NCBI GenBank assembly: GCA_003725745.1
Contig: RHDP01000001.1
Location: 1,829,501-1,893,500, forward strand
Direction: 5' to 3'
From: Streptomyces sp. I6
GTDB lineage: Bacteria > Actinomycetota > Actinomycetes > Streptomycetales > Streptomycetaceae
DNA: 64,000 nt
The position numbers and the translations under genes are program-made. Under the pieces are notes generated by a model. That model was not told the origin of the DNA. It ran no database searches and saw only the letters and a program-made list of their open reading frames with translations. Shown piece after piece: positions 21,842 to 24,590 of this stretch; the stretch's first letter is position 1; every line of letters starts with the position of its first letter.

Positions 21842-22597
21842 TCAGCCGGCGGCCGGAGGTCTGTCGACGTAAGGGAGGGGCGGTTCCGGGATCCTGTCGA
21901 CCGCGGCGGCATCGAGCGCGAGGGCGGCCGAGGTGGTCCCCAGGGTGCCGTGCGGGTGCCAGGTGCCGGTGACCCGCACCCAGGTGTCGGCGGGCGGCGC
22001 CGTCGCGCCGTGCACGGTGACGGCCAGCGACTGCGCGTCGGCCGCACAGCAGGAGATCAGGAGACGGGTCACTTCCCAGGCCCCGTCCTCGCCCGGTGTG
22101 ACGAACCCCTGCACGACGACGGTGCGGCCCTTCAGACTCTGCTGCTCCTCCTGCTGCACCCGGGCGATGAACTCGGTCAGGGAGAGCGGGACGGCTCCGC
22201 GGGCCGGGAGCGTCTCGAAGCTCTCGTACTCCGCGACGAGCTGCGGACTGTCCCGTGCGGCGGTGTAGGAACCCAGCGCCGGCGGGGCGTTGAGGAGCAG
22301 GACGAGCGCGGGTGGGAGCAGAAGCCAGGCGACGCGCGGTCCGCGGGTGTGGTCGTGCCCGTGGACCGGTGCCGGGTCGCGGTGACGGGCGTCGCTCCCC
22401 TGACGACGTGCCGGGAAGGGCAGTCCGTCCCGCCAGGCGCCGAGCACGCCCAGGGCGCACAGCACGATCCCGGACGCGGCGAGGTAGGGCTGCAGTCCTT
22501 GCTTCACATAGCGCAGGCCGATGTCGCCGAAGAGGGACACGCGGAGGACCCCTGCTCCGACGACGATGAGCAGCACGGCCTGGAACGGGCGTCTCAC
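21842..22597 (-). CDS. TIGR03943-like permease subunit
   Basis: A 251-residue protein with membrane helices at about 5-20, 35-52 and 78-95, and a soluble C-terminal half containing a paired-Cys motif (LLISCCAADAQSLAVTV, about residue 177). It matches the TIGR03943/DUF1980 family, which is almost always encoded next to a DUF318-type permease, as here. The GTG start overlaps the stop of the upstream permease by four bases (GTGA), so the two are translationally coupled. The substrate is not established; the vicinal Cys pair and the adjacent zinc-type ribosomal gene make a metal plausible (inference). Confidence 0.82.
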   Translation of the reverse strand: MRRPFQAVLLIVVGAGVLRVSLFGDIGLRYVKQGLQPYLAASGIVLCALGVLGAWRDGLPFPARRQGSDARHRDPAPVHGHDHTRGPRVAWLLLPPALVLLLNAPPALGSYTAARDSPQLVAEYESFETLPARGAVPLSLTEFIARVQQEEQQSLKGRTVVVQGFVTPGEDGAWEVTRLLISCCAADAQSLAVTVHGATAPPADTWVRVTGTWHPHGTLGTTSAALALDAAAVDRIPEPPLPYVDRPPAAG

Positions 22598-23670
22598 AGC
22601 AGCCACCAGCCGGCTAGGGAGCTGGCGGCGACGGCGACGACCGCCGTCGCCGCGGAGAAGCGCAGGGCGAACGCCCGGCCGAAGGTGCCTGCCTGCAGGG
22701 CGATCAGTTTCACGTCGACCATGGGGCCGACCACCATGAAGGCCAGCCGTGCCGTGGGCGAGAAGCCGGTGAGCGAGGCGGCGACGAAGGCGTCGGCCTC
22801 CGAGCAGACGGCGAGGACGATCGCGAGTCCGGCGAGGAACAGCACCGACAGCCAGGGGGATCCGGAGAAGGTGTCCAGCACCGGCCTCGGCACGGCGACG
22901 TTGAACGTCGCCGCGGCCATGGCACCGAGCACGAGGAACCCGCCGGCGTGCAGGAAGTCGTGCTGGAAGCCCAGCCGGAACTCCTCCCACCGGCTGTGGC
23001 CGTGCCGGTGGCCGGTGTGGCGGGACGGCATACGCAGCCACTCCGCGCGCCCGAACCTCAGCCACAGCCAGCCCATCGCCGCCGAGACGGCGAGTGACGC
23101 GACGAGCCGGGCAGCGACCATCTCCGGGCTGCCGGGGAAGGCGACGGCGGTCGAGGCCAGCACGATGGGGTTGACGGCGGGCGCGGACAGCAGGAACGCG
23201 AAGGCGGCGGCCGGTGTCACACCCCGCCGGATCAGGCTCCCCGCCACGGGCACCGAAGCGCACTCACAGCCCGGCAGCACGACCCCGGCCGCGCTGGCCA
23301 CCGGCACCGCGAGGGCGGGTCTGCGCGGCAGCGCCCTGCTGAACACACGCTCCGGTACGAAGGCGTTGACCGCACCGGAGACCAGCGTGCCCAGGATCAG
23401 GAACGGCAGGGCCTGCAACGTGACAGCCACGCAGATCGTCTGCCACGCACGGAAGCCGGGGTGGGTCAGCCACTGGGCCGCTCCCGCCGCCCAGGCGAGC
23501 CCGGCCACCGCCAGCACCGAGGCGGCGCCCGCGGCGAGGACGGGCCCGTGGCGGGGCCTCGCGGGTCCGCGGCCGTTCCCGGCTGCGTTCCCGGACGTGT
23601 CCCCGGCTGCTTTCCCGCCCGCGGGGACGCGTTCAGCTGGTCCTGCACCAACCCCCTGGTTCGTTCGCAT
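22594..23670 (-). CDS. DUF318/YraQ-family permease
   Basis: A 358-residue membrane protein with about eight helices. The family signature VVLPGCECASVPVAGSLIRR lies near residue 150, followed by FLLSAPAVNPIV, and a second half-repeat reads LFLAGLAIVLAVCSEADAFVAASL. ArsP, an organoarsenical exporter, is in the same superfamily, but this subfamily has no proven substrate. A His-rich loop (RHTGHRHGHSRWEE, about 233-246) between the halves could bind metal. The first ~40 residues are hydrophilic and variable, and no clear ribosome site precedes the ATG, so the true start may be internal. Coupled to the downstream TIGR03943 gene. Confidence 0.82.
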   Translation of the reverse strand: MRTNQGVGAGPAERVPAGGKAAGDTSGNAAGNGRGPARPRHGPVLAAGAASVLAVAGLAWAAGAAQWLTHPGFRAWQTICVAVTLQALPFLILGTLVSGAVNAFVPERVFSRALPRRPALAVPVASAAGVVLPGCECASVPVAGSLIRRGVTPAAAFAFLLSAPAVNPIVLASTAVAFPGSPEMVAARLVASLAVSAAMGWLWLRFGRAEWLRMPSRHTGHRHGHSRWEEFRLGFQHDFLHAGGFLVLGAMAAATFNVAVPRPVLDTFSGSPWLSVLFLAGLAIVLAVCSEADAFVAASLTGFSPTARLAFMVVGPMVDVKLIALQAGTFGRAFALRFSAATAVVAVAASSLAGWWLL

Positions 23671-24012
23671 GGGCTTCGGCTCGTCCGGGAGGCATCACGA
23701 TAGCGGTGGGACGGCCTCCGCCCTGGGGCCGGCCGGCGCTCCCCGCTGCCCGCTGCCCGCAACCGGCCGCCCGGGTGACCCGACAGAGGATTCCGGCCGG
23801 GTCGGGCGGTGCCGTGGCTGCGACCACCGCCCGACCCGGAGCATGCACCCGCACGGTACGCGATCAGCGCGTTTCCGGGACGGTACGTATCCGGGACCGT
23901 GCGCATCCGGGACCAGTCGCTTGCGGAGGCCCGTGCGTCCGAGGCCGTACCGTCCGGACGGCTGATCGGGTGGTTGTTCAGCTGTTGTTCAGGTGGTTGT
24001 TCGGGCGCACCG
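23671..24012. other. Gap between rpmF-type gene and permease
   Basis: No gene recognised. GTTGTTCAG-like 9-11-base units occur three times at 23970-24002, and ATCCGGGACC appears twice at 23888-23914. No second copy of the palindromic operator found upstream of the L32 gene was seen here. Confidence 0.45.
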
Positions 24013-24183
24013 TCAGCCCTTGGGGCGCAGCAGCCCTCGCTCGTACGCCTTGACCAGCCGCTGCGGCACCAGATAGGTCACTCCGTTCAGCGTGACCGGT
24101 ACGAGTTGCGACGTGGCGGCCTTCCACTGGGCGCGGCGGTGGCGGGTGTTGCTGCGGGACATCTTCCGCTTGGGAACGGCCAT
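24013..24183 (-). CDS. rpmF: 50S ribosomal protein L32, cysteine-free form
   Basis: A 56-residue L32: [20 protein letters not shown] at the start, then [26 protein letters not shown]. Normal zinc-binding (C+) L32 has cysteines forming a zinc ribbon; this protein has none. Such C-minus paralogs replace the zinc form under zinc starvation and are repressed by Zur in actinobacteria (established for the class). The ATG at 24183 is chosen over the longer frame because it starts the conserved MAVPKRK and has GGAGAGGG upstream. The promoter carries a perfect dyad; see the operator entry. Confidence 0.93.
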
Positions 24184-24217
24184 GGGATCGGGCCCTCTCC
24201 GGACGACGATGCGAACT

Positions 24218-24260
24218 CTGACGCAGACTATATGGAAATGGATCCCATTTCCAAACTTCT
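24218..24260 (-). promoter_or_regulatory. Palindrome-controlled promoter of L32 gene
   Basis: A perfect inverted repeat at 24233-24253 has 9-base arms TGGAAATGG/CCATTTCCA around a 3-base centre. On the minus strand a TTGGAA -35 overlaps its upstream arm and a TATAGT -10 follows immediately, 16 bases apart, so a bound protein would block polymerase. The half-sites resemble the TGAAAAT/ATTTTCA of actinobacterial Zur boxes, but the spacing differs. Zur control is the leading inference. Confidence 0.7.
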
Positions 24261-24386
24261 TCACCCGGAGCCGACGGAGGGCGGTGGTCGGCGGAGTGAG
24301 GGATACGGCCGCGGCGAGCCCTGCGGGGCGGCTGCGTCTGCTCCCCCGGGCCGGGGCCTTTGCGGCAACGCTTCAGACGTGTCCGG

Positions 24387-24590
24387 GCGGCGCCGCCGGC
24401 GCAGTGCCTCCTCCGTACCGGCGGTGAGTTCGTCGAACCACGGGCTCAGCAGCGCGGCATACCAGGCTATCCGGTCAGGTTCGGGCGGTACCGCGGCTTC
24501 GTCGCGGTGGGGGACCCGGAGGTTGACCGCGAGGGGGCGGGCGGTGGCCTTCCGCAGCTCGCCCAGGAGCCATGGGACGGCTGCGGGAGC
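24387..24590 (-). pseudogene. Nitronate monooxygenase-like remnant
   Basis: About 65 residues (VPWLLGELRKATARPLAVNL, then VPPEPDRIAWYAALL) resemble the N-terminal FMN-domain segment of nitronate monooxygenase, where a helix is followed by a beta strand with the pattern RPFGVNLFVP. Neither the beginning nor the rest of the roughly 330-residue enzyme is present. Flanking sequence in the frame is Arg/Pro-rich noise. A decayed fragment; moderate to low certainty. Confidence 0.4.

Follow-up and report, generated by a model that had tools for sequence, protein, structure and literature searches.

The locus examined here raises the question of which regulator reads a perfect palindrome that lies over the promoter of a ribosomal protein gene without zinc-binding cysteines, and how this palindrome can come close to the published operator of the zinc regulator Zur without matching it. 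The window, by which we mean the whole stretch of DNA that was analyzed, comprises 64,000 nucleotides of Streptomyces sp. I6 (positions 1829501-1893500 of contig 1), and the gene in question is the following.

24013..24183, minus strand: cysteine-free ribosomal protein L32 paralog (rpmF2-type), 56 aa, from its translation without cysteine and from profile matches.

The predicted protein matches Pfam Ribosomal_L32p at 38.8 bits (cut-off 21.3) and NCBIfam rpmF at 38.5 (cut-off 22.6), and its 56-residue translation has zero cysteines, which bears out the first-pass annotation of an L32 paralog lacking the zinc ligands. The genome has three L32p genes. The main copy, at 5033667, is the best L32 match of the genome and carries four zinc cysteines (CxxC + CxxC); the window gene, having no cysteine while a cysteine-bearing copy is found elsewhere, thus belongs to the zinc-free (C-) paralogs. 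A second zinc-free L32 (6300411-6300578) also lacks cysteine and is followed by a COG0523 gene. Strong matches to zinc-free L32 number 26 in 25 of 61 sampled genomes, with two in one genome only, the one studied here, and among the best 80 matches of a wider search the named genome of S. tuirus PHM034 likewise gives two L32 loci.

Upstream of the window gene lie the following operator and promoter elements.

24233..24253, minus strand: 21-bp operator, a perfect 9-3-9 dyad, TGGAAATGGGATCCATTTCCA on the gene strand; putative double Zur box, from the dyad search and scans of the genome and its relatives.
24239..24253, minus strand: operator register 1, TG-N11-CA, 15 bp (operator positions 1-15), from the sequence and the 6-bp-offset test.
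24233..24247, minus strand: operator register 2, TG-N11-CA, 15 bp (operator positions 7-21), 6 bp from register 1, from the sequence and the 6-bp-offset test.
24249..24254, minus strand: -35-like hexamer TTGGAA, five bases shared with the operator, from the promoter scan.
24225..24230, minus strand: -10 hexamer TAGTCT, favoured by conservation, from the columns in 79 relatives.
24232-24227, minus strand: alternative -10, TATAGT, as read in the first-pass annotation, from the promoter scan.

The dyad is located 49 nt before the L32 ATG, and its two 9-nt arms (24233-24241 and 24245-24253), separated by 3 nt, are 100% complementary, as had been claimed for a perfect 9-3-9 dyad over this promoter. 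Its placement between the two hexamers needs correction, as the dyad instead overlaps the -35 by five bases and abuts TATAGT. The proposed pairing of TTGGAA with TATAGT across 16 bases, on the minus strand, is the one place in 23550-24500 that matches a sigma-70-type promoter (shuffles give a mean of 0.0), but the relatives favor another -10. In all 79 of the 79 aligned L32 sites, columns 24, 25, and 29 from the box start are T, A, and T, and because this invariant hexamer starts 2 nt further on, the -10 is more likely TAGTCT with an 18-nt spacer.

The window contains 8 perfect 9-3-9 dyads, so such a dyad alone is not rare, and this is what speaks for a chance palindrome with no regulatory role; what sets the dyad beyond chance is its position and recurrence, not the 9-3-9 symmetry itself. 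When the dyad was scanned through the 7.05-Mb genome with up to three mismatches, four places were returned, and the only three that match with two mismatches or fewer are all upstream of zinc-free-type ribosomal genes: the window L32, an L33-L31-CobW-type GTPase-S18 operon (locus L019), and L28-S14 (locus L018). Within these operons L31, S18, and S14 are without cysteine, L28 has one, and no cysteine was seen in the L33 frames read. The promoter site is therefore common to other C- ribosomal genes, which answers one half of the check suggested earlier for this dyad; the other half, whether znuACB carries it, came out negative, as that operon has two separate 7-1-7 boxes. The fourth place (5266162, three mismatches, locus L023) is probably a chance match, with no zinc gene recognized among the listed open frames. 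A generalized pattern, TGNNAATGNNNNNCATTNNCA, has exactly three exact matches in the genome, at the same three places, and none for the reversed control. With up to two mismatches it has 38 places versus 13 for the reversed control, a set that includes three places at zero mismatches, three at one, and those of the second zinc-free L32, of znuA, and at 6600966.

When the L32 protein was searched against public genomes, at least 411 loci were confirmed, and we examined the best 80 of the 411, all from named genomes and 77 of them titled Streptomyces; the loci compared are related, not independent. One of these L32 proteins (locus L055) has a cysteine and the other 79 have none. At least nine of the 12 fixed motif bases are present within 250 bp upstream in 79/80 L32 loci, versus 47/1443 random 250-bp windows of the same loci, and at least 11 of 12 in 72/80 versus 4/1443; the single L32 locus of the 80 without the site is L054. 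Among these best 80 of 411, the distance from the end of the site is 36-89 nt to the ATG and 2 nt to the invariant TA...T hexamer. The L33 sample, the best 30 of a search of 61 genomes, has the site in 30/30 loci, with 10-12 of the 12 motif bases and 12-15 nt before the ATG. Given this same-place recurrence in 79/80 relatives and in front of two other zinc-free-type ribosomal operons of the genome, we reject a chance origin on conservation and regard it as scarcely credible.

In the 61 genomes of the genus, the exact generalized motif occurs at 36 sites in 26 genomes, and 33 of these are in the 200-bp upstream stretch of a gene for zinc-free-type L32, L33, or L28 (L32 in eight cases, L33 in three, L28 in two, and divergent L33 and L28 together in 20); the three found elsewhere equal the reversed-pattern control count of three. 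The 21-bp motif is thus searchable, its exact matches mostly marking zinc-free ribosomal genes in the genus while missing many sites: 35/61 genomes have no exact match, many L32 and L33 relatives have sites one or two bases away from the pattern, and strong matches to zinc-free ribosomal genes are absent from some of the 61 genomes. Divergent L33 and L28 genes were found in 38 cases with 51-86 bases between them, so that one operator could serve both. Outside the genus, 40 L33 upstream regions were fetched and L33 was located in 39, of which four score at least 10/12 (three in family f17 and one in f26). In family f19, 12 L33 loci score 6-9, and seven of the 12 show a single 7-1-7-like box on visual reading. 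In many of these outside loci L33 seems to follow L28 in an operon, so the stretch upstream of L33 is not the promoter there. Outside the genus the layout of the operator thus appears to vary, and the doubled box may not be general in the class.

The dyad would look unlike the published 15-bp 7-1-7 box because two such boxes overlap in it. The 21-mer can be read as two 15-bp boxes with a 6-bp shift and nine bases in common, with TG at positions 1 and 7 and CA at positions 14 and 20, and in the window both TG-N11-CA elements are complete on both sides, the layout that a two-dimer operator calls for. Neither register is a canonical single box, since by hand count they hold 7 and 8 of the 10 fixed positions of TGNNAATNATTNNCA, in keeping with the earlier remark that the arms resemble but do not equal the 7-1-7 box; the znuA boxes score 8 or 9 of the 10. 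A scan with TGAAAATGATTTTCA and up to three mismatches misses the window site, although it picks up a single register of the L33 site (3766349), so a classical 7-1-7 scan was abandoned as a route to the window site.

The spacing of the two registers was examined by an offset test, in which the distance between two TG-N11-CA elements upstream of a gene is scored against shuffles that keep base composition only; the test covered 28 of the 30 L33 loci, two having been dropped with a start that the script left unplaced. A pair at exactly 6 bp is present in 47/80 L32 loci, 18/28 L33 loci, and 0/30 znuA loci (0.13%, 0%, and 0.2% in the respective shuffles), and 29/30 znuA promoters instead have a pair 22 bp apart. 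Given offsets of 6 versus 22, the zinc-free ribosomal genes and znuA therefore differ in operator layout within the genus. The motif score alone cannot separate the two classes because znuA box 2 reaches 10/12 on the 21-bp motif, but the offset test separates them.

The same columns bear on the number of dimers that the site would hold. A single Zur dimer could sit on the right-hand register only, with the left arm kept through its overlap with the -35. Consistent with this, the ends of register 2 are intact in 72 of 79 L32 sites, those of register 1 in 52, and both in 47; C14 and C20 are conserved at 100% and A21 at 99%, but the outer left G2 at 72%; the site before the genome's second zinc-free L32 is a weaker version in which GC replaces the left TG; and the motif published for S. 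coelicolor is one 15-bp box (PMC5472717). Many species have a degenerate left register, and for these a single dimer could be enough. In the L32 sites, however, A6 (99%) and T7 (94%) fall outside the -35, and in the 28 L33 sites conservation is 93-100% at T1, G2, and A5-T7, against 39% for the T that a TTG -35 would require, and is weaker at the right end (82% each for C20 and A21). Judging from these columns, overlap with the -35 could explain part of the left-half conservation in L32 and less of it in L33. The exact 6-bp pair in 47/80 and 18/28 loci and the completeness of the window site on both sides also speak against a single dimer, which we consider rather unlikely.

The genome encodes four FUR-family proteins, and the gene of one adjoins znuACB. 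This protein is identical to S. coelicolor Zur (3mwm) at 85 of 97 aligned residues and also matched 7vo0, so that a zur gene is present, and it retains H36, D37, and H41 (our own numbering). For D37 and H41 a role in the cooperativity of Zur dimers on DNA was reported in a 2024 paper, which also describes S. coelicolor Zur as able to bind as a tetramer or hexamer (PMC11077047).

With four FUR-family genes in the genome, and with a dyad that differs from the canonical 15-bp Zur box, the site could instead be used by another Fur-family protein or by an ArsR-type protein, the gene for which is found near the L28-S14 copy (L018:4625-4975). Nur and FurA are examples of other Fur-family proteins. 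Against such a regulator, the outer heptamers, TGNNAAT/ATTNNCA, match the Zur box, seven of the 12 L33 loci in family f19 bear, on visual reading, a plain 7-1-7-like box in place of the dyad, and genes of the kinds that stand behind the dyad are published Zur targets, as S. coelicolor rpmF and rpmG/B are (PMC5472717, PMC6103462). We hold a regulator other than Zur to be quite improbable.

The preferred reading, to which we assign a probability of roughly 0.85, is that the dyad is a double-register operator through which zinc-loaded Zur represses the zinc-free L32, most likely as two cooperative dimers. A doubled Zur site accounts for the pattern better than a site for another regulator would, and the earlier guess of a variant Zur site is well supported by the sharing of the dyad across zinc-free-type ribosomal operons, by its conservation, and by the presence of Zur. 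For this strain we infer Zur binding, the two-dimer stoichiometry (from the layout and the linker residues), and the zinc response. In the proposed mechanism, two dimers of zinc-loaded Zur would bind cooperatively on the overlapping registers and would occupy the -35 together with almost all of the spacer, excluding RNA polymerase. As zinc falls Zur would leave, the freed promoter would allow zinc-free L32 to be made, and this protein could stand in for the zinc-binding form in the ribosome, so that zinc is spared or released.

The nearest known system is that of S. coelicolor, where rpmF2 and rpmG2/rpmB2 are, like the genes here, cysteine-less paralogs of the same kinds under zinc-Zur, with the Zur proteins related as given above. 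The published S. coelicolor motif is one 15-bp 7-1-7 box (tGaNNatSatNNtCa) rather than a 21-bp 9-3-9 dyad, the comparison here being with this motif and not with the S. coelicolor rpmF2 site itself. Reported S. coelicolor affinities are 68 nM for rpmF2, 75 nM for znuA, and 18 nM for rpmG2 (PMC6103462), a review groups rpmF2 with znuA among promoters that require more zinc for repression (PMC8000910), and on 25-bp znuA and zitB probes S. coelicolor Zur was reported to bind as one dimer only (PMC5472717). The degenerate left register of many relatives and these affinities, with rpmF2 close to znuA and weaker than rpmG2, are the main doubts about binding by two dimers. We also considered that doubling the box tightens Zur binding, an idea which the reported values do not support.

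The arrangement also has counterparts among other Fur-family operators. Baichoo and Helmann in 2002 reportedly reinterpreted the Fur box as overlapping 7-1-7 motifs, and the skeleton of the 21-mer is the same as that of the Fur consensus. The Fur box shares the 7-1-7 heptamers and a possible 6-bp dimer offset with the 21-mer, but it serves an iron regulator and has an AT-rich core, whereas the inner triplets here are TGG/CCA. The reading of the Fur box as overlapping 7-1-7 motifs is discussed in a paper in which modeling of a related protein finds a 6-bp dimer spacing compatible with a Fur 7-1-7 site (PMC3293774). At E. coli znuABC, two Zur dimers joined by cooperative salt bridges are described on overlapping elements in a compact promoter dyad, as proposed here, but the motif is 20 bp long with other bases and, on our reading of the motif as printed, a register offset of 5 bp (PMC4219657). 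The C. glutamicum Zur motif is 21 bp long and overlaps core promoters, as here, but is described as a 10-1-10 repeat around one 7-1-7 box, with a symmetry center unlike that of the dyad (PMC2823685).

Zur control of S. coelicolor rpmF2 is already published, and the doubled operator is a modest refinement; a literature search, with the sources available in part, brought up no account of two Zur boxes at a 6-bp offset in Streptomyces, which is a weak negative. The doubled layout explains why the palindrome is nearly but not exactly like the published Zur box. Promoter sequence could reveal the order of zinc sparing versus import in Streptomyces if cooperativity is set by the double design. As a tentative extension, which we think doubtful at present, Streptomyces Zur might use two operator designs with different zinc thresholds, a compact double box (6-bp offset, a dimer of dimers) at zinc-sparing ribosomal genes, in one case shared by divergent L33 and L28, and boxes separated by 22 bp (two helical turns) at uptake genes, and the perfect double box of the window L32 and the degenerate one of the second L32 might stage these two zinc-free genes.

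Downstream of L32 the window holds two further genes of interest.

22594..23670, minus strand: ArsP_1 permease, with NCBIfam SO_0444 (Cu/Zn efflux) below cut-off, from profile matches.
21842..22597, minus strand: putative permease subunit of the TIGR03943 family (DUF1980_C), a partner to the permease above, with an ambiguous start codon, from profile matches.

The permease follows L32 on the same strand after a 342-bp gap and is possibly a zinc-related neighbor. The permease and/or TIGR03943 gene is near L32 in 9/80 relatives, in differing orientations, and COG0523 matches are found in the loci of 61/80. In Wenjunlia tyrosinilytica (locus L032) the order is L32, COG0523, permease (88% identical), and TIGR03943 (70%). 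No COG0523 remnant was found between the window L32 and the permease at E <= 0.5, and the window copy may have lost this GTPase.

Elsewhere in the genome, a divergent L33|L28 cassette appears to be duplicated with reciprocal decay (L019:5760-6040 and L018:5812-6462; genome positions 3766259-3766539 and 6297811-6298461). One copy keeps L33-L31-GTPase-S18 and an L28 fragment, in the other L28-S14 persists alongside remnants of L33 and S18, and the operator survives in both; the decay could also reflect sequencing errors. The kept L33 gene (genome 3766378-3766538, locus L019) has matches in two frames, an apparent frameshift that may be an assembly error (87% completeness, two contigs). At L018:5325-5657, in the stretch from the ArsR-type gene to the L28 cassette, lies an open frame rich in His and Asp, with a pair of similar units around GCGHVAVPH, possibly encoding a metal-binding protein. 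Finally, in locus L022 (genome 6596000-6611500), Zur-like boxes occur at 6600966, where the 15-mer is the same as znuA box 2, and at 6607753, close to genes for a PLP decarboxylase and for a transport pair of the periplasmic-binding/FecCD type, which makes this region a candidate zinc-controlled metallophore cluster.
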